From assembly GCA_019753155.1 (NCBI GenBank), contig JAIELG010000043.1, forward strand, positions 1 through 64,000: 64,000 bases of DNA, written 5' to 3'. A model generated the notes under the pieces. That model was not told the origin of the DNA. It saw nothing but the letters and a program-made list of their open reading frames with translations, and ran no database searches. Numbering within the stretch: the first letter of the stretch is position 1; the number at the start of each line of letters is the position of its first letter. Positions 15,899-29,429 of this stretch are shown here, one piece after another. Position numbers and translations under genes: made by a program. Source of the DNA: Burkholderiales bacterium (GTDB taxonomy: Bacteria; Pseudomonadota; Gammaproteobacteria; Burkholderiales; JABEVD01).

Positions 15899-15972
15899 GG
15901 CGGGGTGGCAGAGTGGTCATGCAGCGGCCTGCAAAGCCGTCCACACCGGTTCGATTCCGATCCCCGCCTCCA
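15899..15972 (+). tRNA. tRNA-Cys (GCA)
   Basis: The 74-base gene folds as a standard cloverleaf: acceptor GGCGGGG pairs with CCCCGCC (15962-15968), discriminator T and an encoded CCA at 15970-15972. The anticodon loop CTGCAAA carries GCA, and the T loop GGTTCGATTCC is intact. It decodes UGC and UGU. It marks the left boundary of the peptide and tail-collar gene region; no integrase or attachment repeat was found beside it. Confidence 0.96.
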
Positions 15973-15997: not shown

Positions 15998-16492
15998 ATG
16001 CGCTTTCTTGCCGTCGCTATGATGCTGGCTGCGCCCGTTCGCAAGGCGAAGAATTTTTTGCGCAGGCCATGGTTCGAGAAGGCATGGTCTACTCCCGCAT
16101 GGTTTTTGCTGGGGGCAAGCCGCCTTGTCATTCTCTTCGTTCCTTTCAGGCGCCTTGCGCCTTTCCTTGGCGCGCAGTCGTATCCCTGGGTGCCGTGCGC
16201 AACTGCGGAAGGCGAAGCCAGGGCATTGTCGATTGCCCGGGTAATCGTTATGGCTGCCCGTCATACGCCGTGGGAGTCGAACTGTTTTGCGCAGGCGGTG
16301 ACCGCAAGAATTTTGCTCGGGCTTTACGATGTTCCGTACAGCCTGTTCTTCGGTATCGCAAATGATTCCATGATGGAGATGAAGGCGCATGCCTGGGTGG
16401 TCGCCGGACGGGTGCGCGTCACGGGAGGGGAGAGCTTCGGACAATTTACCGTGGTTGGCTGTTTTGTCGCATCCGTCCTGGCAAATGCATAA
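15998..16492 (+). CDS. Lasso-peptide B2-like transglutaminase-fold protease
   Basis: The product from ATG 15998 has 164 residues and matches the B2 (transglutaminase-like core) family that cleaves leader peptides in lasso RiPP pathways. Family marks are PWESNCFAQAV with the catalytic Cys (about 96) and MKAHAWVV with the catalytic His (about 131), then a short VTGG turn. The reading frame runs upstream into tRNA-Cys; ATG 15998, GTG 15983 or ATG 16019 are all possible starts and none has a strong ribosome site. Family B2 proteins are about 140-160 residues, which fits 15998. It stands 25 bases after the tRNA and converges with a GNAT gene 4 bases downstream. Confidence 0.82.
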   Translation: MRFLAVAMMLAAPVRKAKNFLRRPWFEKAWSTPAWFLLGASRLVILFVPFRRLAPFLGAQSYPWVPCATAEGEARALSIARVIVMAARHTPWESNCFAQAVTARILLGLYDVPYSLFFGIANDSMMEMKAHAWVVAGRVRVTGGESFGQFTVVGCFVASVLANA

Positions 16493-16496
16493 GAAG

Positions 16497-16973
16497 TTAC
16501 GAATCCGACCAAACCATCTCCATGCCGTCATCGCCATTTACTCGAAATCCTGCGGAAAGGTAGAGGTGTTTGGCGCGCATGTTCAGGGGATCGACCGAAA
16601 GCGTCAATATTTTATTCGAGCCTGCAGCCTCGTTTTGCAGCGCCCGAATCAGGCGGCGGCCATGGCCCTTGTTGCGTTCATGCGGCAGAAAAGCGATGTA
16701 GACCAGCCGGATCGCCCCGTCGCCGCGATGCGTGATCAAGCAACCTACGGGTTCGCCGTTTTTCTCGACGATGTCATGATCGGCATTCGGAAATTGTGTG
16801 CGGTATCCTGTTTGTTGGGATTCGAACTGCATCTGCATCAGGTTGGCCGCCATCGCCTCGGGAAGCCCAAGCTGCAATAAGTCATCCCTTGTAGAACGAT
16901 AAAGTGTTGCGAGAAAGGGCCTGTCCTGCAAGGCTGCAGAGCGGAGCGTCAATATGTCAACGTTATTGTTCAT
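16497..16973 (-). CDS. GNAT-family N-acetyltransferase
   Basis: This 158-residue protein has the GNAT fold: a first helix segment LRSAALQDRPFLATLYRSTR, the central strand VYIAFLPHERNKGHGRRLI containing the acetyl-CoA pyrophosphate loop (R-x2-G-x-G-type, about residues 98-107), and the C-terminal YLSAGFRVNGDDGMEM. The acceptor is unknown. From general familiarity, members with this particular N-terminus often sit near tail-collar (MdpB-like) gene triplets, and three such genes are in this region. It is transcribed against the surrounding genes, ends 4 bases from the B2 gene and has no clear ribosome site. Confidence 0.82.
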   Translation of the reverse strand: MNNNVDILTLRSAALQDRPFLATLYRSTRDDLLQLGLPEAMAANLMQMQFESQQTGYRTQFPNADHDIVEKNGEPVGCLITHRGDGAIRLVYIAFLPHERNKGHGRRLIRALQNEAAGSNKILTLSVDPLNMRAKHLYLSAGFRVNGDDGMEMVWSDS

Positions 16974-17093: not shown

Positions 17094-17741
17094 ATGAGCG
17101 TCAAAGAACCATCGAATCCTTTCGACCGCATTCCACCTTACCGCATCGTGCAGGACTTTCTGGGGAATGACCTGATCGAGCGTTTGCTGGAACACGCCAA
17201 AGTCCGCGAGCCGGAGTTCGTATCGACAAAAGTCGGCAATACGGAAGGGCATCTCGACACCGAAGTGCGTATTTCACGCGTGCTGCCGGATTTCGGGGTC
17301 CTGCGAACGGAGCTGGAGCTGCGGTTTAAGGGAGCGATGCCTGAGGCGATCGCCGGTCTCAGACTCACCCCTTTCGAACTGATTCGTTGCGAAATCGAAC
17401 TGGTGGCGCATAACGACGGCGCCTTTTACAAACGCCATATCGATACTCAAACAGAAATTCCGAATGCCGAAACGCAGCGGGTATTGACCGGCGTGCTTTA
17501 TTTTTATGCTTTGCCGAAGGGATTCAGCGGCGGTCAGCTGCGGTTGTATTCCTGCTCGCTTTCGGGAGAGAATTTCATCGATATCGAACCCGTGCGCGAT
17601 CAGTTGGTATTGTTTCCAGCCTGGGCGCCGCACGAGGTTTTGCCTGTGTCATGTCCTTCCGGAGAGTTTGCACAATCCCGTTTTGCCGTCAATTGCTGGT
17701 ATAGGCGCGCGAACCCGCATCAAGCGATTGCACATGAATGA
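17094..17741 (+). CDS. 2-oxoglutarate/Fe(II)-dependent oxygenase-like protein
   Basis: The product from ATG 17094 has 215 residues (GTG 17025 would add 23). It contains the iron-binding facial triad of the 2OG-Fe(II) superfamily: YKRHIDT (HxD, about residue 105), the distal His in AWAPHEVLP (about 180), and the 2OG-binding Arg in SRFAVNCWYRR (about 200). Related prolyl-4-hydroxylase-like proteins hydroxylate amino acid side chains in proteins or peptides. Here it opens an operon with an ATP-grasp protein, an asparagine-synthetase-like cyclase and a YkgJ protein, so peptide hydroxylation is a reasonable hypothesis. It overlaps the next gene by 8 bases. Confidence 0.8.
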   Translation: MSVKEPSNPFDRIPPYRIVQDFLGNDLIERLLEHAKVREPEFVSTKVGNTEGHLDTEVRISRVLPDFGVLRTELELRFKGAMPEAIAGLRLTPFELIRCEIELVAHNDGAFYKRHIDTQTEIPNAETQRVLTGVLYFYALPKGFSGGQLRLYSCSLSGENFIDIEPVRDQLVLFPAWAPHEVLPVSCPSGEFAQSRFAVNCWYRRANPHQAIAHE

Positions 17742-19005
17742 AGGGAACTCCGGAAAACGTCCTTTCCGGTTGTTGCGTTTCCTGTATGTGCGCTGGCCAT
17801 TCATGGCTAATTTCTACTCCCTGAGCAAATTGGGTTTCCCCTTCATGCTGCCTGATTTTCGCGCGAGCGCCATGAGGCGGCTGCGTGCCCGTGCCCGTCG
17901 CGAAATTTTCGCGCACCATCCGCCGGTGCGGCGCTGGCTGGAGCGCATGACGATGACGCTTTCCTGGCCATTCGGCGCGCTGGTGGACACGGTTTACAAT
18001 TTGAGAATGAGCGGAGCGTTCGACCGTCCACGAAACTTTCCGGATCTGATGGTGCGCGCCGGACATATGCTGACATTGGCCTTATTCGAAAACGTTCCGC
18101 CATTTGAATATGTCGCCTACCGTTTGAATGAACCCGGGCGGCGGGAGCGGGCAAGCGAATATCTTTATTGGAGCGAAGACAATATTTTTCGTGTCCTCAA
18201 CAGTCGCAACGGCGCAGATAACGACGACGTGCAGGACAAGGGGCGTTTTGCCGATATCTGCCGGCAGCACGGTTTTCCCTGCATTCCCACGCTGGCCATT
18301 TATCGGGGAGGCAGGCAAATTTTCCCCGATGCGCCATTTATCCCCAGCCAGCCCGCCCTGTGGGTGAAGGATCTTGCCGGCAGCCGGGGAAGCGGAGCGG
18401 GGCAATGGCGGCGTCAGGAAGGCGACTACACTTCTCCTGGAAGAAGGGTTGCCACACCCGAAGAACTTGCGGATTCATGGCGCAAACAAAGCTGCATCAT
18501 TCAGCCGGTAATCAACAACCATCCCGATTTGGCCTGCCTGTCCGACGGGACTCTGGCGGAAATCCGCATCATTACCGGGGTCGATCCCGAAGGCAATGCG
18601 CAACTTATTACGCACCAGATGACCATTCCCTGGGGCGGATTCGCCAATCGGCCTTTCTCCGTGCTGGGTATTCTGGACGATGATGGGCGCATATCTCGCG
18701 CCATCTCCGGCGACGGAAAGCCTGTGGAACGGCATCCGGAAACAGGCGCACCCATTGCTGAAATTGTCGTTCCATTCTGGCGCGAAGCGCGGGAATTGGT
18801 GAGCCGCGCTCATGGGCAGGCGTTTTCGCATTTCGTTTTTCTCGGCTGGGACGTCGCGATCACTGCAGAGGGGCCGGTATTGATCGAAACCAATTCTAAC
18901 CCCGGAGTTTTCCACCATCAGTTCGCCGACGACATTCCACTCGGGCATACCGTTTTTGCAACGATTGCTTCCCGATATTTCGAAAGGGCTGAAACATGCG
19001 ATTGA
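17734..19005 (+). CDS. ATP-grasp protein (sugar-transfer-associated type)
   Basis: The 423-residue product from ATG 17734 resembles the sugar-transfer-associated ATP-grasp family. Features are a basic N-terminal helical part (about 1-130), the central strand LWVKDLAGSRGSGAGQW resembling an ATP-grasp lysine/glycine loop (about 208), and a C-terminal LGWDVAITAEGPVLIETNSNPG (about 372) with the metal-binding Glu and Asn pair. ATP-grasp enzymes make amide or ester bonds through acyl-phosphates. The acceptor is unknown, and this family is also found in glycan clusters. Overlaps of 8 bases upstream and 10 downstream put it firmly in the operon with the cyclase, which points to peptide modification here. 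Confidence 0.75.
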   Translation: MNEGNSGKRPFRLLRFLYVRWPFMANFYSLSKLGFPFMLPDFRASAMRRLRARARREIFAHHPPVRRWLERMTMTLSWPFGALVDTVYNLRMSGAFDRPRNFPDLMVRAGHMLTLALFENVPPFEYVAYRLNEPGRRERASEYLYWSEDNIFRVLNSRNGADNDDVQDKGRFADICRQHGFPCIPTLAIYRGGRQIFPDAPFIPSQPALWVKDLAGSRGSGAGQWRRQEGDYTSPGRRVATPEELADSWRKQSCIIQPVINNHPDLACLSDGTLAEIRIITGVDPEGNAQLITHQMTIPWGGFANRPFSVLGILDDDGRISRAISGDGKPVERHPETGAPIAEIVVPFWREARELVSRAHGQAFSHFVFLGWDVAITAEGPVLIETNSNPGVFHHQFADDIPLGHTVFATIASRYFERAETCD

Positions 19006-20819
19006 TATGCGGCTTTTTTCATCGAGACGGGCAGACAGCGGAAAAAGGCCGCTTAGGGGCCATGGTCGATGCGATGATCGAACCTGGACTCGAACCGCAG
19101 ATCGCGCAACTGACCGAAGGGTCGCTCGCGCTTGCCGTGCTGGATTTCGCAAGAAAAACCCCTTTCGAGATTGCCCATGGTGAACATGGGCTGATCCTGG
19201 CGGCGGATTGTCGTCTCGACGAGCCGGAGGCATTGAGGCGGATGCTTGGCGTCGACGGCGCAGTGGCGGACGAAAGCTTGCTTCTGTCAGCGCTGCAAGA
19301 TTGGGGTTCTGCAGGCATTTCGAGAATACTGGGCGATTTCGCCTTTGCCGCATGGAACCCGCAAACTCGCTCCCTGCTTTGCGCGAGAGATTGCATGGGA
19401 ATCCGCCCTTTCTTCATGGCAAAAAATAACCGGCGGGATTTTGCTTTTGCTTCACTGCCGCGCGCCCTGCATGCGGGCGGTTTTGCGACGCGCCGTCTCG
19501 ACGAAAGCTATCTGGTCAACGATCTGTTGAATGTGTTTTCATGTCCGGAACGTTCCCTTTTCCAGGATATCTCGAAGCTGGCGCCAGGAAATTTCCTGCA
19601 TGTTTCCTCAAATGAAATTCGCCCGGAAGTCTATTGGAAGCTCGATCCTGAACTTGCCGGCAGCAGGACTTGTTCTTCTGAAGCGGCTGCGGAAGAGCTT
19701 TCGGAGAAATTGATCGAAGCCGTGCGTTGCCGCCTGCCGGAAACTGGCCCGGTAGCGGCACATCTCAGCGGAGGGCTGGATTCCTCTGCGATTTCAGTGC
19801 TGGCGGCGCGCATGTTGCGCCGCGAAAAACGCCCGCTCCTGGCCTATTCCTTTCTTCCTGAAATTCAGGGCGAGGAAGACGAGCGTCCTTTCGTCGAGGC
19901 CGTGCTGAAGCAGGAGAGCGACATCGAATGGATGCCGGTCACGATAGCCGATCCGGAAGCTTTTTTCATGCCGAGGATGGATTGCGATCAGTTGTTTCCT
20001 TCCGATTCTGGACATCCCGACATCCGGGTGTGCGCCGATGCGGCAGGCCGCGGCGCGGACATGCTGTTATCAGGCTGGGGAGGAGATGAGGGGGCTACCT
20101 TCAATGGTCGCGGCGCACTGGCCGAAGCCCTGCTCAACGGCCGATGGCGCTATCTGGCGCAGGAAATTGAATCCCTGAAACGCACCCGGAAATGGACTGT
20201 CATCCAGATCATGCGAGGTGAAGTGCTGGCTTATCTTTTTTCGGAGCGCCTGCGCAGTTTGCTGGGGAAGCATCGGCACGATATCGCTGCCCGCATCTTC
20301 AGGGTGTTGCAGCCCGGGTTTGCCGATGCCAGGCGAGGAGAACCCCTCAGGATCGGACCCAATGCGGCGATGAATCGCTATATACTCCTGAGCAGTTTTC
20401 ACCTTGCCAGGCGGGCCGAGCATTGGGCGCTGATGGGCGCAAGGCATGGTCTGGCTGTCGGCTTTCCGATGCTGGACCGGCGAGTGGTGGAGTTCTCGCT
20501 GTCCCTGCCAAGCGCGTTATTTTTGCGTGGGGGCTGGAAGCGGCGCGTTTTTCGCGATGCGATGGTCGACGTGCTGCCTGATGCAATCCGTATGCGTCAT
20601 GGCAAGCTCACCCCTATTCCTGAAGTATCAGGGATGATGGAAACTCAACGTGAGCGGCTTTTGCTGTATCTTGCCGAATTGCGCGGCCACCCGGTCATTT
20701 GTACCTTGTTCGATCTTGGCGAAGCCGAAAAGATATTGCGGTCGGACTGGGAAGGGGCCGACATTCCCACCTTGCTTCGGTTTTTAAACATGGCGACATA
20801 TGTGCAGCAGCACCACTGA
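18996..20819 (+). CDS. Asparagine-synthetase-like isopeptide cyclase (lasso C protein type)
   Basis: This 607-residue protein has an N-terminal glutaminase-like domain (about 1-190) and a C-terminal asparagine synthetase domain with the PP-loop SGGLDSS (about 258-264), LSGWGGDEGATF (about 355) and GFPMLDRRVVEFS. It begins MRLICGFF, so the catalytic Cys2 of true glutamine-dependent AsnB is missing; Cys is at position 5. That loss, plus a B2 protease and PqqD nearby, fits lasso-peptide C enzymes, which adenylate an Asp or Glu side chain and close the ring. A non-lasso amidation role stays possible. It overlaps the ATP-grasp gene by 10 bases. Confidence 0.82.
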   Translation: MRLICGFFHRDGQTAEKGRLGAMVDAMIEPGLEPQIAQLTEGSLALAVLDFARKTPFEIAHGEHGLILAADCRLDEPEALRRMLGVDGAVADESLLLSALQDWGSAGISRILGDFAFAAWNPQTRSLLCARDCMGIRPFFMAKNNRRDFAFASLPRALHAGGFATRRLDESYLVNDLLNVFSCPERSLFQDISKLAPGNFLHVSSNEIRPEVYWKLDPELAGSRTCSSEAAAEELSEKLIEAVRCRLPETGPVAAHLSGGLDSSAISVLAARMLRREKRPLLAYSFLPEIQGEEDERPFVEAVLKQESDIEWMPVTIADPEAFFMPRMDCDQLFPSDSGHPDIRVCADAAGRGADMLLSGWGGDEGATFNGRGALAEALLNGRWRYLAQEIESLKRTRKWTVIQIMRGEVLAYLFSERLRSLLGKHRHDIAARIFRVLQPGFADARRGEPLRIGPNAAMNRYILLSSFHLARRAEHWALMGARHGLAVGFPMLDRRVVEFSLSLPSALFLRGGWKRRVFRDAMVDVLPDAIRMRHGKLTPIPEVSGMMETQRERLLLYLAELRGHPVICTLFDLGEAEKILRSDWEGADIPTLLRFLNMATYVQQHH

Positions 20820-20847: not shown

Positions 20848-21378
20848 ATGTCATTATGCCTGTCTTGCGGAATTTGTTGCGACGGCGCGTTATTCGGCTG
20901 CGTGCCGATCGGCAATGCCGACAGTCTCGCCGCAATGGAAGCGGCAGCCATAGAGGTTCTTGTGCTTGACGGGCAGAGCCAATTCAAACAGCCCTGCCCT
21001 GCTTACTCCTGTAAAGGCTGTCGGATTTACGCCGACCGTCCGGCAAGCTGCCGGGAATTTTGCTGCAAGCTGCTGGCGGAATACGAAGGCGGGAAAATAT
21101 CCATGCTGGTTGCCAGGGAGAAAATAAAACAGGCCGGTTCTCTCAGGGACAGCCTCCTGGAAACATTGAGGCGTATCGACCCGGCATTGTCCGGCAGGTC
21201 TCTGGCGGAACTGTGGAAGCAGTGGGACAGTGCGGCAAAAGGGGCGGAAGGGTTGGTCTTCCGGCAAAAATTCGGATATGTGTTGATGCAAATGGCTGCA
21301 TTAAGGCGGTTTTTTGATCGACATTTTATTGCGCAGGCGTTCCCTCGCGGCGATGATTCGGAAGGGACCCGGAACTAG
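20848..21378 (+). CDS. YkgJ-family cysteine-cluster protein
   Basis: The start at ATG 20848 (MSLCLSCGICC) follows AAGGAAGACGG; in-frame ATGs at 20800 and 20824 are less well placed. The 176-residue protein has the YkgJ/Fe-S-like cysteine cluster: CLSCGICC near the N-terminus and CPAYSCKGCRIYADRPASCREFCC (about residues 50-74 in all), then an alpha-helical C-terminal half. Family members are thought to bind zinc or an Fe-S centre; function is unknown. It lies 28 bases after the cyclase on the same strand and its 3-prime end overlaps that of the opposing PqqD gene by 4 bases. Confidence 0.75.
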   Translation: MSLCLSCGICCDGALFGCVPIGNADSLAAMEAAAIEVLVLDGQSQFKQPCPAYSCKGCRIYADRPASCREFCCKLLAEYEGGKISMLVAREKIKQAGSLRDSLLETLRRIDPALSGRSLAELWKQWDSAAKGAEGLVFRQKFGYVLMQMAALRRFFDRHFIAQAFPRGDDSEGTRN

Positions 21379-21641
21379 CCCAGCATGCCGCGTTCGCGCA
21401 GCGCCTTGATGAATTCCTCAACTTCCTGGCGACAGGTGTCAAATGGAACGTCATATTCCTCCGTCAGGCGCGCCGCCAGTTCGTCGATGCCGATGGGGGA
21501 CTCCAGCAGTTCCCAGATGCGCGAGCCTACCGAATTCAGGCTGAAATAGCTGCCTTTTTCGATGCTCATCATCAACAGTTCTTCGCCCACCGCAGCCCCC
21601 AGCAAGTCGTTCGACCGCTGAAATAATTGATCCTCAGACAT
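21375..21641 (-). CDS. PqqD-family RiPP recognition element protein (B1-like)
   Basis: This 88-residue protein matches the PqqD family, winged-helix RiPP recognition elements that bind leader peptides and present them to modifying enzymes. Typical features are the strand GEELLMMSIEKGSYFSLNSVG, the helix SRIWELLESP and the acidic EEYDVPFDTCRQEVEEFI. In lasso pathways the B1 protein is a stand-alone PqqD of this size that binds an aromatic-x2-Pro leader motif. The candidate precursor nearby carries VWATPEI. It is the last gene of the minus-strand run (tail-collar genes, precursor, kinase, sulfotransferase). An alternative family name is the PqqD partner of HprK-related systems. Confidence 0.85.
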   Translation of the reverse strand: MSEDQLFQRSNDLLGAAVGEELLMMSIEKGSYFSLNSVGSRIWELLESPIGIDELAARLTEEYDVPFDTCRQEVEEFIKALRERGMLG

Positions 21642-21656: not shown

Positions 21657-22496
21657 TCAAATATAGCCGAATCTGGACATGACCCGGTGGTGCGTTTGTG
21701 TGATCGCCTGCTGCTGCTCCGGGTTCAGCACTTCCCGCCAGATGCCGGCGCAACCGGAACGAAAGAAAGGTGCCGTCGATTGCATGGGCCGCTCGCGAAA
21801 GCCGGCGACTTTTTCCTGGCGCTGCAAAGCGGAAAAATCGGTGCAACGGACGGCGTGTTCTATCGCATCGGCCGAAGCTGCGAGGCCGAGAAAATCCGCT
21901 GCCGCCTGCATGGTGGCGATGGGCGATTCATGCAGATCCTCGTAGCGGATGACGTGGACCGGTACATCATTCTGTTCGATCCAGCTTTCGACATGGCGGC
22001 TCCAGTCGTAAGCCACCTGATGAAGTCGAGGAAGATTGTGTCTGCGATCCAGGACCATCTGCGGGCTATTCATCAATTTTATCGCCTGTTCGATCGAGAT
22101 TCCGCAGTGAAATGCGAATGAAATCGCCACGTCGCGCGGATCGCGGATTACATAGCACCCCGCTCGCGCGCATCCATGACCCAGCAGCGGCTCGCCGCCC
22201 GCTATGGTCCTGTAGGCGTCATGCACCTTGACGTAAATATCGCCATCCGCTTTCGAGGTGATCTCTTTCACCACTCGCGGCCGCAATGCATCCACCTCGT
22301 CGTGCGATAGCAGGCTGGAATCGATCAGGGTGATTTCCTCGAAATTGTCGCGATTGACGATGTCGCGCTGAGGCAAGCCGATCTCGTTGATGTCCACCGC
22401 TTCCTCTTTGCCGGACAACAGGTTGGCGAGCAGCAGGCGCAGCCAGGTATTGCCGGATTTCGGATAGGATGCGAGCCAGATGATCGCGCCGGCCAT
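21657..22496 (-). CDS. Sulfotransferase-domain protein
   Basis: This 279-residue protein has both PAPS-binding elements: the 5-prime phosphosulfate loop ASYPKSGNTWLR near residues 8-19 and the 3-prime phosphate loop VIRDPRDVAISF (about 110-121), plus the late DFLGL and GIWREVL segments. It should transfer sulfate from PAPS to a hydroxyl or amine group in the cytosol. The start at ATG 22496 shares one base with the upstream kinase stop (TGATG) and has GAGG at proper distance; ATG 22502 is two codons earlier. Coupling to the HprK-like kinase and PqqD suggests a peptide substrate, but glycolipid or sugar sulfation is not excluded. Confidence 0.85.
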   Translation of the reverse strand: MAGAIIWLASYPKSGNTWLRLLLANLLSGKEEAVDINEIGLPQRDIVNRDNFEEITLIDSSLLSHDEVDALRPRVVKEITSKADGDIYVKVHDAYRTIAGGEPLLGHGCARAGCYVIRDPRDVAISFAFHCGISIEQAIKLMNSPQMVLDRRHNLPRLHQVAYDWSRHVESWIEQNDVPVHVIRYEDLHESPIATMQAAADFLGLAASADAIEHAVRCTDFSALQRQEKVAGFRERPMQSTAPFFRSGCAGIWREVLNPEQQQAITQTHHRVMSRFGYI

Positions 22497-23398
22497 CAGC
22501 ATGCCTCGAACAGGTGTTTCTGCACAAGGGTGACGACTTCTTCCAGTTTTTCGATTTCTTGCGGTCTTGTCAATCGATAGGCGCTGACATGGCCGAGCAG
22601 CCTGGCGATCTGGCCGAAAAGCGCAGCATCGAGCTCCATGCGGGAGGCGAGGGCCGACCGGTAAACATCGGATCGCAGCAATGCGGCCGCGTCGCTTAGG
22701 CCCAATGGCTCGATTACGGCTTCCTGACCGCGAGACTCCGCCGTGCGCAGCACCAGTATCTTCGAAAGCGGCATCGCGGCGCTTTCGCCGGACGGGTCGA
22801 CATGGTATTTTTCTATCGTTTCCCGTACCGCTCCACCCTGGCGTTGAGACAGGGAAAGCCGTTCGACGGCATCGATCCACAAACGGTGTTGACGGCTGTC
22901 GGGCAATACCCAGGGGCAGCCGTCGGCCTCGAAGCGAACTACGGAAATATCGTCACTGACGAAGCTGCAACCGGCCTGGCAAAGCGCTGCGGATAAAGTC
23001 GATTTTCCCATGCCGCTTGGTCCGCAAATAGCGATGGCTCGACCGTCACGGGCGACGGCCGATGCGTGCAGGGCCAGCGTGCCGCGCTGGTGCAGCAATA
23101 CGCCGAAGCCGGTGCCGAGCAGGAAAGGGACGGTATCGGCCTCGGCATTTTCGACATCGACGATAATTTCCCTGCCTGAACGCACCCTCATGCGGGCGAC
23201 GCCGGGAATATGCAGCAGAAAATCGTCCCCTGAAATCATCCAGTTCGGCCCGCGCAATGTGACCTGATCCAAGGTTTCGGGAAGGCGGCCTCTTTCAATC
23301 CTGACATCGGGTTCAAGCCCCGTTTTTTCGGGATCCGCCACACCTGTGAGCGTAATTTCAGAGGCGACAACCAGGCCGGATATCAGGTAATGCAACAA
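22496..23398 (-). CDS. HprK-like serine kinase (peptide-tailoring type)
   Basis: This 300-residue protein has an HPr kinase-like core: LHASAVARDGRAIAICGPSGMGKST with Walker A (about 125-133), followed by the SFVSDDISVVRF acidic strand. It lacks the N-terminal sensor domain of true HprK. Homologues in lasso clusters such as paeninodin phosphorylate the C-terminal serine of the precursor, and the adjacent candidate precursor ends in Ser. Other members belong to HprK-related/PqqD systems of unknown function. It lies 12 bases after the precursor gene, and its stop overlaps the sulfotransferase start by one base. Confidence 0.82.
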   Translation of the reverse strand: MLHYLISGLVVASEITLTGVADPEKTGLEPDVRIERGRLPETLDQVTLRGPNWMISGDDFLLHIPGVARMRVRSGREIIVDVENAEADTVPFLLGTGFGVLLHQRGTLALHASAVARDGRAIAICGPSGMGKSTLSAALCQAGCSFVSDDISVVRFEADGCPWVLPDSRQHRLWIDAVERLSLSQRQGGAVRETIEKYHVDPSGESAAMPLSKILVLRTAESRGQEAVIEPLGLSDAAALLRSDVYRSALASRMELDAALFGQIARLLGHVSAYRLTRPQEIEKLEEVVTLVQKHLFEAC

Positions 23399-23410: not shown

Positions 23411-23566
23411 TCAGGAAGTATGTCCTGAAGGGCCCCCTTCCACCGGGGTGGTGAACTTCGCCTTGAGCGTGACATCCTTGATCATCTGGTCGCAGATTTC
23501 AGGCGTAGCCCAAACCTTCCTGGCGCGAGGCCGGGAGGGGGGCTCTGGAGTTTCTGGATCGGCCAT
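23411..23566 (-). CDS. Candidate RiPP precursor peptide (51 residues)
   Basis: The start at 23566 follows GAGGAG with good spacing; a longer in-frame version from 23641 lacks one. The peptide begins MADPETPEPPSRPRARK, continues VWATPEICDQMIKDVTLK and ends AKFTTPVEGGPSGHTS. The aromatic-x2-Pro-x-Ile pattern (Trp19, Pro22, Ile24) is what PqqD/B1 proteins recognise in lasso leaders. Thr33 could be the penultimate leader Thr. Glu43 is the only acidic residue in the C-terminal 20, at ring position 8 if the core begins at Ala36 or 9 if at Lys35; neither start is typical, since Gly is usual. The terminal Ser suits the adjacent HprK-like kinase. Function is inferred from context and size. Confidence 0.68.
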   Translation of the reverse strand: MADPETPEPPSRPRARKVWATPEICDQMIKDVTLKAKFTTPVEGGPSGHTS

Positions 23567-23682
23567 TGCATCTCCTCGTTTGTGTGTAACAGTCACAACA
23601 TCGTCGTAAGTGCATTCATGATGAACGGAGTCGATATCCATCCGTTCGATTCTATCGTATCAATCCAGGGGAACGGCCAATA

Positions 23683-23735: not shown

Positions 23736-24329
23736 TCATGGATGTTGCGGGAAAAGGCCATCGTTGCAGATGCAATAAAGCAAAGGCAGGTAGGGCTGCC
23801 GATTCTCGTGAGTTGCATTGCCGCCGGTTATCCCCAGGGTCGATGCATGCAGGGTCGTGTCGACCTGAGCGCCGGAAGCGGCCAAGGTGAAATTGGGAAT
23901 GATGGCGCTGGCATCGGGTCCGCTTACTTGCGCCGGGCGAGCCAGCCAGGAGCTGTTTGCCACGGGTACTGCCAAACTGTTGGCCTGAGAACCAATCGGC
24001 GACGTCAATTTTTCCATCACCAGGGTGTGATTATGGGAAGGGATTTGAGAGACGGATACGGTTGCCGATTCGGTTCCGTGCTTGCTTCCAAGCAGCCAGT
24101 TTATGGCGCTGCCGGGAGCAGTGCTTGAACCGACCCCGACGGCGGCTTGCCCGTTCAGGTTGGGCAAAACGAAGGATTGCGGGTTCGGCGGATTTCCATA
24201 GGTATTGCCGACGATGGCGGCTAGCGCCTGGTATTGGGCGATGGGAACTGCCTGACCGTTGCACTCCAGCCAGCCTTGAGGCGCGAATGAAAATGCAAAG
24301 GGGCGGATTTCGCCTATGAATGCATCCAT
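23736..24329 (-). CDS. Tail-collar domain protein 1 (MdpB-like)
   Basis: This 197-residue protein has the phage tail-collar fold seen in microcystin-dependent (MdpB-like) proteins. The N-terminal core is GEIRPFAFSFAPQGWLECNGQ, with later FVLPNLNGQAAVGVG and SHNHTL. The C-terminal closing strand YLPLLYCICNDGLFP follows a Gly/Ser/Ala-rich middle. No signal peptide or membrane segment is seen. It is the third of three tandem genes on the minus strand and the most diverged, with NPPNPQSF where the others have GGDG. No other phage structural gene is present, so these are not an obvious prophage remnant. Confidence 0.85.
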   Translation of the reverse strand: MDAFIGEIRPFAFSFAPQGWLECNGQAVPIAQYQALAAIVGNTYGNPPNPQSFVLPNLNGQAAVGVGSSTAPGSAINWLLGSKHGTESATVSVSQIPSHNHTLVMEKLTSPIGSQANSLAVPVANSSWLARPAQVSGPDASAIIPNFTLAASGAQVDTTLHASTLGITGGNATHENRQPYLPLLYCICNDGLFPQHP

Positions 24330-24342
24330 GATCTATTCTCCC

Positions 24343-24891
24343 TTATTGAAATTGCGGATAAATTCCGTTCAGACAAATGATGTAGTTTACAGCCAGGCCG
24401 GGCATGACATTGTTATGCCCCTGGCTGCCGCCTGCCGAAACAACACTGGCCGTGTTGGGACTGGCTTGAACCGCGGTCGAGGACGGTAAGCCGTCTTTGA
24501 TGTACAGTGTGTTTTGTCCTGTGGTGTTGGCGAAAGTCACTGTCGTATCGAACGTTCCGGTGGTGGCGGCAACTCCGGCGGTGTTGAGCGTATGGGCATG
24601 AGCTGCCATGCTCGCCGTGGTGAGTGTGACAGTCTCCGTCCCGCCCTGCTGTCCGAGGGCATAGTTTGTCACGGTAGTTCCCTCCGTGTATGTACCCTGG
24701 CTGAGGCCGACGCGACCGCGAAAATCCGGAACGGCGAAAGTATTCACGCCGTCGCCGCCGTAAGCGGCGCCTATGAGGCTGAAAAGCGTGTTGTAAGCGC
24801 TGACCTGAAGCAACGTGCCGTCGCACAGGTGCCAATCCACCGGAGCGAAATTTCCGGCAAAGAGGCGAATTTCTCCGATATAGGGATCCAT
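24343..24891 (-). CDS. Tail-collar domain protein 2 (MdpB-like)
   Basis: This 182-residue tail-collar protein starts MDPYIGEIRLFAGNFAPVDWHLCDG, with the conserved LFSLIGAAYGGDG, FAVPDFRGRVGLSQG and AHAHTLN blocks, then Thr/Ala-rich variable sequence and the closing NYIICLNGIYPQFQ. Tail-collar domains form trimeric or fibre-like assemblies in phage tails, while the free-standing bacterial MdpB-like proteins are of uncertain function. It is separated by 13 bases from the first paralogue and 25 from the third, so the three are probably co-transcribed and made in parallel. No secretion signal is visible. Confidence 0.87.
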   Translation of the reverse strand: MDPYIGEIRLFAGNFAPVDWHLCDGTLLQVSAYNTLFSLIGAAYGGDGVNTFAVPDFRGRVGLSQGTYTEGTTVTNYALGQQGGTETVTLTTASMAAHAHTLNTAGVAATTGTFDTTVTFANTTGQNTLYIKDGLPSSTAVQASPNTASVVSAGGSQGHNNVMPGLAVNYIICLNGIYPQFQ

Positions 24892-24916: not shown

Positions 24917-25459
24917 TTACGGGCGCATCGGATAAAGGCCGACCGTTGCAATGCAGAAACTGGTCACGCTGAAAGGCTGCATGTTGGAGTGCGCGCCGCC
25001 GCTGCCTGTATTCTGCACGCTTCCGGGATTCAGCGGGATCATGCCCGAGCCTGGCGCTGCAAGCGCATTTTGCTGGGTCGGCACGGCAGCGCTCGTTCCT
25101 ACCGAGGATATGAAATTGTTCGCAATTTCCTTGATCGTGCCCCCCCCCTTTTTGCCCGCCAGTTGATGGTTGTGCGCAGGCAACTGTGCCACGGTAAGGG
25201 TGACGTTTTCCGGGCCGCCGTTTTTGCCCTGCACATAAGTGCTTCCTGCGGGACTTTGGCCTCTGTTCACGGCCACCCGCCCACGCAGGTCGGGTAGCGC
25301 GAAGGTCGTTCTGCCGTCCCCGCCGTACATGTTGCTGAGCAGGCTGAAAAGGGCGTTATATTGATTGACAGGCAATGTCCTGCCGTCACAGGGCATCCAG
25401 TCCATAGGAATTTTGCCGAATGCGAAATTCCGGATTTCGCCAAGATACCAATCTCCCAT
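24917..25459 (-). CDS. Tail-collar domain protein 3 (MdpB-like)
   Basis: The start at 25459 (MGDWYLGEIRNFAFG) follows AGGAGGAG; an ATG one codon earlier is too close to that site. The 180-residue protein keeps the LFSLLSNMYGGDGRTTFALPDLRGRV core, PAHNHQL, and the C-terminal FSVTSFCIATVGLYPMRP. It is the first gene of the tandem triplet and heads the minus-strand run that continues through the precursor, kinase, sulfotransferase and PqqD. A nine-base homopolymer (plus-strand C, 25140-25148) lies in the codons for Lys-Gly-Gly-Gly and could allow frameshift switching. Confidence 0.87.
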   Translation of the reverse strand: MGDWYLGEIRNFAFGKIPMDWMPCDGRTLPVNQYNALFSLLSNMYGGDGRTTFALPDLRGRVAVNRGQSPAGSTYVQGKNGGPENVTLTVAQLPAHNHQLAGKKGGGTIKEIANNFISSVGTSAAVPTQQNALAAPGSGMIPLNPGSVQNTGSGGAHSNMQPFSVTSFCIATVGLYPMRP

Positions 25460-25612
25460 CATCTCCTCCTTTTTGTGATTCGCAGGCCGCACTTGGATCG
25501 TGGCTCGACATTGCCACGTTCTTACAAATCGATTAAAGCATGTGAAATGACAAATACCAAATTGCATGGCTTCTGAACGGACAAAAAATTTACCGGATGC
25601 CATCCGCCCCTG

Positions 25613-25838: not shown

Positions 25839-27539
25839 ATGGTTGACTATCTGCGCGTATTCCTGCGTTTCGACCCTGCTGCGATCCGGCGCGCGGTTCT
25901 GTTCAACTTTGCAGCAGCATTCGCCGAGGGAGCGAGCCTCCTGATGCTCCTGCCGTTGCTTTCCCTGGCGGGGGTGCTCGGGGAGGCCGGCAGCAGGCGG
26001 GGCTGGATGCCGCCCGTTGACCGGGCCTTATCGATGCTCGGGTTCAAGTGGAATATCGAAATCGCGCTGCTCGTTTTTGTCGCGCTGATCTTTCTCCAGT
26101 CGCTCCTGGTGATGCTCAGAGACCGCGAATCCAATGCCTTGCAGTTTCGCTTCGGGGATCACTTGCGGAAAAAACTTTACGCTGCGATTGGCGCTTCCAG
26201 CTGGCGCTTCCTTGCGGAGCATCACAGCGGAGAACTGCTTTCCGTGCTTGCCACCGATGTGCAGCGCATCGGGGCGGGAACCCACTTTATGCTCCGCTTT
26301 TTCACCGTGTCGGTGCTTGCTGTCGCCTACCTTGCCGTGGCGCTCAGACTTTCAATCGGACTCACCTTGCTCGCGCTGGCGACAGGATCGATGCTCTGGA
26401 TGTTGCTGCGCGGCGCCGATAACGTTGCAAAACAGGGGGGAATGATGCTGAGCGAAGCGAACCGCTCGCTGTTCGGGCAGATCCAGGAATTCCTGTCAGC
26501 CATGAAACTCATCAAGATCCATGGCGAAGAGAAAGACAGCGTGAGCAGCTTCAATCGCGGGGTCGATCAGGTCAGCAATCGCTCGATCGAATTTTATCGG
26601 GTCAGGACAAGGGTACAGGCGGTATATCATGTGGGCGGGGCAATGGCGCTCGCTTGTCTCAGCTACTCGGCCCTCGTCTGGTTCGAATTGCCGGCGGCGC
26701 ATTTGCTGGTGATGATTGCCATCTTCGCACGCATGCTGCCCCAGCTCGCCGAATTGCAAAGCGGAAGACAGCAAATGCTGCATATGCTCCCTGCCTATGC
26801 CGCCTGGCGTGGACTGGTCGATGCCTGCGAAGCGAATCGCGATCCTGTGGAGGCGGTCGGCAATCGCGTGCCACTCGAGCTGGGCATCACTTTCGAGCAG
26901 GTCGGATACAGCCGCCCGCACCACAGGCTTTTTATCCCGCAATTGACTATTCCTGCGAGAAAGACCACCGCGATAATCGGGGTTTCCGGTTCGGGCAAGA
27001 CGACTTTTCTCGATCTTTTGAGCGGTTTGCTCATCCCCGAGTGCGGCGCCATCCTGATCGACGGCATGCCTTTGCAGCAATGCTGTGGATGGCGGCAGAG
27101 CATTGCTTACATCCCACAGGAAACCCAGATCCGGAGCGGCACAATCCGCGACAATCTGCTTTGGGGCAATTCAATCACGCAGGATGCCGAGATCGAAAAG
27201 GCGCTGTCGCAGTCGGCTCTGGCCGGATGGGTGCAGAAGCTGCCTGCAGGACTCGAAACCGAAGTCGGAGAACGGGGCATCAGGCTCTCCGGGGGCGAAA
27301 AACAGCGCTTGGCGCTCGCCCGGGCCCTCCTCAGACATCCTCAGCTTCTGGTGCTCGACGAAGCCACCAGTGCGCTCGATGCGGGCAACTACAGGCTGGT
27401 GGCCGATGCGATCCGCGCGTTGCGCGGCAGCATGACGGTGCTTGTCGTCACCCACAGGATCGACGAGCTTTCCGGGTTAATCGACGGCATTGTTCGTGTG
27501 GATGAAGGTGAGGTCGGAAAATGGCAGCCGACAGCATGA
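25839..27539 (+). CDS. ABC transporter, fused permease and ATPase (peptide exporter type)
   Basis: This 566-residue half-transporter has about six membrane segments in residues 1-310 and a nucleotide-binding domain in 335-560. The domain has Walker A GVSGSGKTT (about 381), signature RLSGGEKQRLALARA (about 482), Walker B LLVLDEATSALDA (about 503) and the switch His in VTHRID. Homodimers of this type export peptides or lipids across the inner membrane. In a cluster with B1, B2, C and a precursor it fits the lasso D (McjD-like) role. It lacks an N-terminal peptidase domain, so leader removal would fall to the B2 protein. It overlaps the nucleotidyltransferase gene by 19 bases. Confidence 0.88.
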   Translation: MVDYLRVFLRFDPAAIRRAVLFNFAAAFAEGASLLMLLPLLSLAGVLGEAGSRRGWMPPVDRALSMLGFKWNIEIALLVFVALIFLQSLLVMLRDRESNALQFRFGDHLRKKLYAAIGASSWRFLAEHHSGELLSVLATDVQRIGAGTHFMLRFFTVSVLAVAYLAVALRLSIGLTLLALATGSMLWMLLRGADNVAKQGGMMLSEANRSLFGQIQEFLSAMKLIKIHGEEKDSVSSFNRGVDQVSNRSIEFYRVRTRVQAVYHVGGAMALACLSYSALVWFELPAAHLLVMIAIFARMLPQLAELQSGRQQMLHMLPAYAAWRGLVDACEANRDPVEAVGNRVPLELGITFEQVGYSRPHHRLFIPQLTIPARKTTAIIGVSGSGKTTFLDLLSGLLIPECGAILIDGMPLQQCCGWRQSIAYIPQETQIRSGTIRDNLLWGNSITQDAEIEKALSQSALAGWVQKLPAGLETEVGERGIRLSGGEKQRLALARALLRHPQLLVLDEATSALDAGNYRLVADAIRALRGSMTVLVVTHRIDELSGLIDGIVRVDEGEVGKWQPTA

Positions 27540-28747
27540 AGGTCTTCGATCGTCCTTGCGTGAGGAAATTCATACTCGATGCGCTCAATCCGGATGCTGC
27601 GCTGCCGGACATCGGCGCGATGCAGGAAGCGGATTGGGCCTGCCTCCTGCAATCGGCTCAAACGCATCGTCTCGGTCCCATGCTTCATGACAGGCTCGGC
27701 CATTTCGTCTCAATTCCAATCGAGGTTAGGGATCGTTTGCAGGCGATGCATCGAAAAAGCGTCTTGCGCAATCTGAATATTTACCGGGAACTGGTCACGG
27801 TGACGCGGAAGCTGGAAGCCGAGCAAATTCCTTCAATTGCGCTGAAAGGCGCCTTTCTCGCTCGTTTCGCCTATTCCGATCCCGGACTCAGACCGATGCG
27901 CGATCTGGATTTGCTGGTCACGGTCGATCAGGCGGTCAAGGCTTTCGAATGCCTCAAGGCGTGCGGATACCGGCCCATGTCCGAAGGCTTGCCCGAAGCC
28001 TATTTGTCGGACTATCACCATCTGCCCGGGCTGATAAGCCCGGACGGCATCAATATCGAACTCCATCATCGCTTGAGCGCTCCTGGCGGGCACTCTCCCG
28101 ATTTCGGCGAAGATATTTGGGCGCGCAGCATATCGAAAATGATCGGCGGGACTGAGGTCGGATTTCTCTGTCCGGAGGATCTCCTGCTTCATTTATGCAC
28201 CCACGCCGCGATCGATCACCGGCTCGATCTGGGCCCCCTTGCGCTTGTCGACGTCGCTTTTCTGGTCGAAACCCATAGGATCGATTGGCGGGATTTCGCA
28301 AGTCGCGCCCAAGGCAAGCGCTGTGCGTTTGCCTTGCTTTGTCTGGCGAAGCTGCATCTCGGTGCGAAGATCCCCGACGAGATCATCGAAGCCGGTCCTG
28401 AAAGCGATGCAGCCTGGCTGGAGTCCGCAGAGTATCTGTTGTTTTTCGGGCGCATCAGCCAAAACTTGATGGGTAATACCATGCAGCGAATTCTGTATCC
28501 GGGGAATTTCATGGAAAGTTTACGCATCCCTTTCGATATCGTATTTCCGCCACGTTCTGCCATTTCACTGCATTTCCCGGTAAGGGCCGATTCTCCGCAA
28601 GCGTTTCTGTATTATCCATTGAACTGGCTTCGATTGTTCGCCGAAAAATTGCCGTTTTTGTTGAAAGCGCTTTCCGATCGAAAACGGGCCCGAAAGTGGG
28701 CTCTGCACAGGAAAACATTCTCCGACTGGATTCGGGAAAAAGACTGA
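27521..28747 (+). CDS. Nucleotidyltransferase-family protein (NTP_transf_5 type)
   Basis: This 408-residue protein matches the putative nucleotidyltransferase family often found with HprK-like kinases and in lasso clusters. The key block is LKGAFLARFAYSDPGLRPMRDLDLLV (about residues 107-132), where the Asp pair would bind metal, then GINIELHHRLS (about 173). The remainder is alpha-helical. Whether it transfers a nucleotide to a peptide, protein or small molecule is unknown. The start at ATG 27521 has GGTGAGG at good distance; ATG 27536 in an ATGA overlap is the alternative. It is the last gene of the plus-strand unit with the exporter. Confidence 0.8.
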   Translation: MAADSMKVFDRPCVRKFILDALNPDAALPDIGAMQEADWACLLQSAQTHRLGPMLHDRLGHFVSIPIEVRDRLQAMHRKSVLRNLNIYRELVTVTRKLEAEQIPSIALKGAFLARFAYSDPGLRPMRDLDLLVTVDQAVKAFECLKACGYRPMSEGLPEAYLSDYHHLPGLISPDGINIELHHRLSAPGGHSPDFGEDIWARSISKMIGGTEVGFLCPEDLLLHLCTHAAIDHRLDLGPLALVDVAFLVETHRIDWRDFASRAQGKRCAFALLCLAKLHLGAKIPDEIIEAGPESDAAWLESAEYLLFFGRISQNLMGNTMQRILYPGNFMESLRIPFDIVFPPRSAISLHFPVRADSPQAFLYYPLNWLRLFAEKLPFLLKALSDRKRARKWALHRKTFSDWIREKD

Positions 28748-28869: not shown

Positions 28870-29172
28870 ATGAAGCTCTGGTCCAGATTGTTCGTCACGC
28901 TTGCGATTACATCTTCGGTGTTCGGTTGCGCGGTTGCGCCAACGCCCGGAGACAAGCCCGATCCAACCCCGCCGCGCCTTCATGTTGGCGACAAAAACAT
29001 AGCATTATGGGACCGTCCCGGCGCTTTCGGCCCGGTTCCCTCCGAGTTGCAGGGCGCGGGCGACTCGCTTTGCCAGTCCATTGGGTTGAAGAAAGCTATC
29101 GGATATCATCCGAAAGCCGAGGACGTGAATGGTAACCCGATCAAGGGTGGCGGGTATTTCTGTTCCAACTGA
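28870..29172 (+). CDS. Small secreted lipoprotein of unknown function
   Basis: The start at ATG 28870 is preceded by a run of seven G that serves as a ribosome site; the upstream in-frame ATGs are less likely. The 100-residue product has a signal peptide and lipobox SVFGC, then a Pro-rich mature N-terminus (APTPGDKPDPTPPR). A short conserved-looking domain with two cysteines follows (DSLCQSIG and the final GGYFCSN), which may form a disulfide. I recognise no family. It has its own promoter candidate and a good terminator, so it is probably a single-gene unit at the right edge of the peptide region. Confidence 0.72.
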   Translation: MKLWSRLFVTLAITSSVFGCAVAPTPGDKPDPTPPRLHVGDKNIALWDRPGAFGPVPSELQGAGDSLCQSIGLKKAIGYHPKAEDVNGNPIKGGGYFCSN

Positions 29173-29340: not shown

Positions 29341-29429
29341 GCCCGGGTGGTGAAATTGGTAAACACATCGGACTTAAAATCCGACGAGGGGCAACTCTCC
29401 TACCGGTTCGATTCCGGTTCCGGGCACCA
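29341..29429 (+). tRNA. tRNA-Leu (UAA)
   Basis: This is an 89-base type II tRNA with a long variable arm: acceptor GCCCGGG pairs with TCCGGGC (last pair G-U), the anticodon loop ACTTAAAAT carries TAA, the T loop reads GGTTCGATTCC, and CCA is encoded at 29427-29429. A TATAAT at 29289-29294 is a candidate -10 element about 45 bases upstream, though no good -35 partner is seen. It decodes UUA and UUG. It and tRNA-Cys bracket the peptide/tail-collar region. Confidence 0.95.

Follow-up and report, generated by a model that had tools for sequence, protein, structure and literature searches.

A lysine-first candidate lasso precursor beside an HprK-like kinase and three phage-tail-collar genes in a Burkholderiales bacterium

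Which macrocycle, if any, is formed from a small peptide that lacks the usual glycine at the first position of its core? This question is raised by a 51-codon ORF in the 64,000-nucleotide stretch of Burkholderiales DNA analysed here (the window), for which the first-pass annotation had considered possible a lasso core of a new type, or else some other macrocycle. Our analysis indicates that the ORF very probably encodes precursor A of a lasso peptide that is tailored by a kinase and closed by a Lys35-Glu43 ring. The ORF lies on the minus strand, from 23566 to 23411 (no strand had been given), and all residues quoted earlier are in place: the aromatic-x2-Pro-x-Ile leader signature (W19-x2-P22-x-I24), which is also conserved in homologues, T33, K35, A36, E43, which is the sole acid of the C-terminal part, and S51, the last residue. 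It forms the 3' portion of a longer ORF of 76 codons that begins with an ATG at 23641; since a GAGGAG ribosome-binding site is found 5 bases upstream of the ATG at 23566, the 51-aa form is the likelier precursor. Between its stop codon and the TTG that starts the gene of the HprK-like kinase lie 12 bases, a spacing like that of a coupled operon. A complete B1, B2, C and D set surrounds the ORF together with the kinase, and the whole cluster stretches from tRNA-Cys (15899-15972) to tRNA-Leu (29341-29429):

15998-16492, plus strand: lasso leader peptidase B2, above the NF033537 cut-off, catalytic Cys and His invariant
16497-16973, minus strand: GNAT acetyltransferase, conserved
17094-17741, plus strand: 2OG-Fe(II) oxygenase (PF13640)
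17734-19005, plus strand: ATP-grasp protein (PF14397), conserved in close clusters
18996-20819, plus strand: asparagine-synthase-like macrolactam cyclase (C), best NCBIfam match lasso cyclase, 293 of 525 bits
20800-21378, plus strand: CxxCxxCC-domain protein, weak match below cut-off
21375-21641, minus strand: PqqD-like leader-recognition protein (B1/RRE), 73.1 of 80 bits, just below cut-off
21657-22502, minus strand: sulfotransferase (PF00685)
22496-23398, minus strand: HprK-like peptide kinase, TTG start, H111-K132-D149-D150 invariant in 11 homologues
23411-23566, minus strand: candidate lasso precursor A, 51 aa, predicted leader 1-34 and core K35-S51 (KAKFTTPVEGGPSGHTS)
23736-24329, minus strand: collar-domain protein 1 (PF07484)
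24343-24891, minus strand: collar-domain protein 2 (PF07484)
24917-25462, minus strand: collar-domain protein 3 (PF07484)
25839-27539, plus strand: ABC transporter (lasso D), predicted export
27521-28747, plus strand: NTP_transf_5 nucleotidyltransferase, annotated like the PsmN-type enzyme
28870-29172, plus strand: small protein whose N terminus resembles that of a lipoprotein, with 60% identity to its counterpart in a same-genus cluster (L037, 3078-3374, minus strand)

Although B1 and C score below the exception-level cut-offs, these lasso models are their best matches. Two motifs of the cyclase, SGGLDSS (258-264) and SGWGGDEG, are invariant in 4 homologues, and its Cys stands at position 5, not as an N-terminal nucleophile. 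Searches of PDB sequences retrieved only distant Asn-synthetase-type proteins for C, HPr kinase for the kinase and no match for B2; the role of the His-Lys-Asp-Asp motif in lasso kinases has been described (PMC9266682). Among close relatives, the CxxCxxCC-domain protein was detected in the window only. The small lipoprotein-like protein, which has no Pfam or PHROG match, is a possible immunity or export partner.

Homologous small ORFs with a conserved core occupy the same position, next to the same kinase, in same-genus genomes, in Methylobacter and in Pseudomonas. The two outcomes named beforehand as refuting the candidate, a lack of homologues in related clusters or of conservation in their C-terminal part, were looked for and did not occur. 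The two same-genus precursors (E 6e-5 and 1.6e-3) end in ...STNLAKFSSPTEYSVPGSASYGAGS and ...GTNLNKFTSPTEYSVLGSASYGAGS and are both embedded in related clusters, while those of Methylobacter sp. and Pseudomonas defluvii were reached with a profile of the kinase and lie beside that same kinase. This profile also retrieved further genomes of the order Methylococcales and of Pseudomonas, a second type within the same genus, and 28 other genomes in a 399-genome sample of the phylum, across which small ORFs homologous to the precursor again adjoin related kinases. A scan of 848 kb of kinase loci for the leader box, the Thr and a C-terminal Ser, with no acid required, found 35 small ORFs against 2.5 expected by chance from Markov-shuffled sequence or 3 from reversed sequence. 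Between the two same-genus precursors (L036/L037), dN is 0.11 and dS 0.78, which points to purifying selection on the homologous precursors. Homologues, dN/dS and scan controls together confirm that the ORF is real, beyond chance. The Ser proposed to suit the adjacent kinase is likewise retained: it ends 11 of the 11 aligned precursors, most of which were found without the Ser criterion, whereas its conservation in the wider scan, where it was a criterion, is not independent.

The 51-aa sequence had no match in viral contigs, and a class-wide search with a precursor profile gave only chance-level matches beyond the window. A match on a Sphingopyxis plasmid (E 8) was discarded as noise, being antisense and located in a conjugation region, and the weak matches in other Burkholderiales include repeated 41-aa frames that are, by length alone, probably unrelated short genes.

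The homologues also provide a register for the core. After removal of near-duplicates and of four probable chance matches (L040 3881, L058 2729, L059 6856 and L117 2629), 28 precursors were available. When residue 1 is set two positions after the Thr, an Asp or Glu stands at core position 8 or 9 in 24 of them, compared with a mean of 4.0 and a maximum of 12 in 20,000 shuffles with random placement of the acid; the exact 24/28 is somewhat favourable, since removals were made by eye with the sequences known and related precursors are not independent, but the gap between 24 and 4.0 is too large for either to matter. Read in this register, the window core would be KAKFTTPVEGGPSGHTS, with Lys1, Glu9, a nine-residue Lys1-Glu9 ring and an eight-residue tail. 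An odd precursor thus becomes readable by register instead of by the Gly1 rule, and homology settles the question of its macrocycle.

Both Lys35 (nine-residue ring) and Ala36 (eight-residue ring) had been offered as partners of Glu43, and the register retains the former. It also bears out the suggestion that Thr33 obeys the penultimate-leader rule if Lys35 is residue 1, as the homologues fix residue 1 by Thr(-2). A lasso ring from Ala36 to Glu43 as residue 8 would use an amino acid that is common at position 1, and eight-residue rings are predicted at other loci (L058, L063 and L107). However, it would put Leu34 instead of Thr at -2, while in all close homologues the residue aligned with Thr33 stands at -2, and most of them have Glu at 9, which makes this ring very improbable.

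Reading Lys35 as residue 1 does not make the core exceptional in kind. Over the 28 precursors, residue 1 is Gly (11), Ala (4), Leu (3), Thr (3), Asn (2) or, once each, Lys, Phe, Val, Ser and Gln; it is thus other than Gly in 17 of 28, and Lys in the window precursor only. Lys1 is rare, yet it does not appear to define a new core type, because residue 1 varies across the kinase-tailored lasso family. The proposal of a new core type, or of another macrocycle, therefore loses its ground: Glu43, as the ninth core residue, gives a ring of ordinary size, and non-Gly first residues are common. The wide range of first residues that this family accepts, with Lys among them, is relevant to genome-mining rules and to cyclase engineering. 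Ordinary Gly1-Glu9 cores occur in it as well, for instance in two Pseudomonas genomes (GAKFGFPNE in G917 and GKPVSWPTE in G843).

A macrocycle of another kind would join the epsilon-amine of Lys37 (core Lys3) to Glu43 through a side-chain amide, made by the ATP-grasp protein or the cyclase. Core Lys3 is indeed invariant in the five closest precursors, and close clusters share the ATP-grasp gene. Nevertheless, such a crosslink fails family-wide because many relatives devoid of a core Lys keep the acid at 8/9 (L060, L061, L063, L097, L099, L107, L109 and L115). Besides, the same register is found in clusters with no detected ATP-grasp, and the window protein belongs to PF14397, with a weak match to a RimK-like model, leaving this crosslink very unlikely. 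A graspetide, which combines a RimK-like ATP-grasp with an acid-rich core, was also considered and rejected, given the single acid in the core and the assignment of the ATP-grasp to PF14397.

Some precursors depart from the register. In a closely related Methylobacter precursor (L040 6655-6876, plus strand), the core GCKNTACGAEDAFTGTGS (GCKNTACGAED) carries its acids at 10/11 instead of 8/9; it contains two Cys and does not fit a ring of 7-9 residues. Three tandem Lys/Arg-rich precursors (L104 12282-12965, minus strand), such as AGSGKKKIRTKEQNKKVGS, lie beside a lasso-type cluster; they have no acid at core positions 7-10 and Glu12 only, and may form a different ring or product.

The ORF, the synteny, the Thr(-2)/acid register and the conserved enzyme motifs are established by sequence, and from them we infer the chemistry, threading, export and bioactivity of the lasso product. 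PqqD/B1 would bind the W-x2-P-x-I leader, and the HprK-like kinase would phosphorylate Ser51, at the C-terminus, while the precursor is still linear. B2 would then cut after Leu34, leaving Thr33 at -2, and the asparagine-synthase-like cyclase would adenylate Glu43 and join it to the alpha-amine of Lys35. The predicted product is a nine-residue ring threaded by an eight-residue tail (17 aa, 1681.84 Da before tailoring), which the ABC protein would export. Calculated masses are 1761.81 Da with phosphate, 1761.80 Da with sulfate (9.5 mDa lower) and 1841.77 Da with both. Tailoring beyond phosphorylation is predicted from the neighbouring genes only: sulfate may come from the sulfotransferase, a hydroxyl from the 2OG oxygenase and a phospho-sugar from the PsmN-like nucleotidyltransferase. 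The core has no Tyr. As the sole case among the 28 precursors, Lys1 may be poorly cyclised, and its uniqueness would also suit a peptide that is phosphorylated or sulfated but left uncyclised, or a decaying window gene with no product. Such an outcome is hardly to be expected, however, as every gene of the cluster is open with intact motifs and the homologous precursors are under purifying selection.

The kinase-tailored lasso reading finds its closest parallel in the paeninodin family (PadeA/PadeK of Paenibacillus dendritiformis; NF033524), with which the window shares the leader box, Thr(-2), the C-terminal Ser, an HprK-like kinase with His-Lys-Asp-Asp, split B1/B2, C and D (PMC9266682). It differs in being proteobacterial, in having Lys as residue 1 and in adding the sulfotransferase, the collar triplet, the 2OG oxygenase, the ATP-grasp and the GNAT. 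Because the window peptide has no match to the NF033524 model (2 of 11 precursor homologues match weakly, best E 0.011), it appears to be of the same kind as paeninodin but not a member of that model. The paeninodin kinase modifies the C-terminal Ser while the precursor is still linear (reviewed in PMC9266682). The C-terminal Ser is also the target of the proteobacterial SyanK of Sphingobium in SyanA, a polyphosphorylated lasso peptide likened here by description only (PMC9266682). In contrast, BsfK is a lasso kinase that modifies Ser3 and not the C-terminus (PMC10368454). Since kinases of both habits exist, paeninodin-like phosphorylation of Ser51 is a best guess by analogy. BsfA of Bradymonas is otherwise comparable, being a phosphorylated lasso peptide with split B1/B2 and a YxxPxL leader (PMC10368454), but it has Ile(-2) where the window precursor has Thr(-2). 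Pseudomycoidin (PsmK/PsmN), from a Bacillus host, similarly combines kinase and nucleotidyltransferase in one cluster, and PsmN attaches hexoses to the Ser once it is phosphorylated (PMC9266682); the likeness of PsmN to the window NTP_transf_5 protein rests on annotation. As for the sulfotransferase, a passage of PMC8498205 credits Zhu et al. with noting one in Firmicute lasso clusters.

The unexpected part of the cluster is its association with phage-tail-collar genes. The collar proteins resemble by sequence the tip of the T4 short tail fibre (E 1.6e-7); an AlphaFold model of collar 2 from 8 sequences had a pLDDT of 34 and was left unused. Across 43 kinase loci, collar genes are present in 17 of the 27 with a sulfotransferase and in 0 of the 16 without (Fisher 2e-5), a figure that ignores relatedness and includes loci cut by contig ends as well as three (L106, L110 and L118) that show no lasso core genes. 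Beside sulfotransferase-bearing lasso clusters, the collar triplet of the window recurs at L036, L037, L040, L041, L059, L061, L063, L097, L098, L105, L107 and L108. Four same-genus genomes were examined, and in each of them the only three collar genes are those of the triplet close to the lasso genes; collar genes likewise fall inside the lasso cluster in 3 of 3 cases in Methylobacter and 6 of 6 in Pseudomonas G917. Following the collar triplet in G843 revealed a third lasso cluster, which has a precursor of its own, NMGNPGNDGSGTSTLS, whereas lasso genes are absent from the vicinity of one triplet (G676, L065). A literature search, with most subscription journals outside it, returned no paper linking lasso peptides with a tail collar or collar domain, and the novelty of the link is provisional. 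Tentatively, and with the odds rather against it, the peptide and the three collar proteins could form one functional unit, in which a phosphorylated, possibly sulfated peptide acts jointly with a phage-tail-tip-like protein complex, or is bound or carried by it. The linkage between precursor, sulfotransferase and collar makes two questions testable: what the sulfotransferase targets in lasso clusters, and for what reason a lasso peptide is accompanied by phage-tip-like proteins.

Cluster arrangement also varies between genomes. G843 carries three separate lasso clusters (L057, L058 and L063) within about 60 kb, and in the L057 precursor the leader box is duplicated, with KAWTTPEIR occurring twice. 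In the same-genus cluster L037, the flanking genes differ from the tRNA-Cys/tRNA-Leu setting of the window, which suggests that the lasso cluster has moved horizontally.
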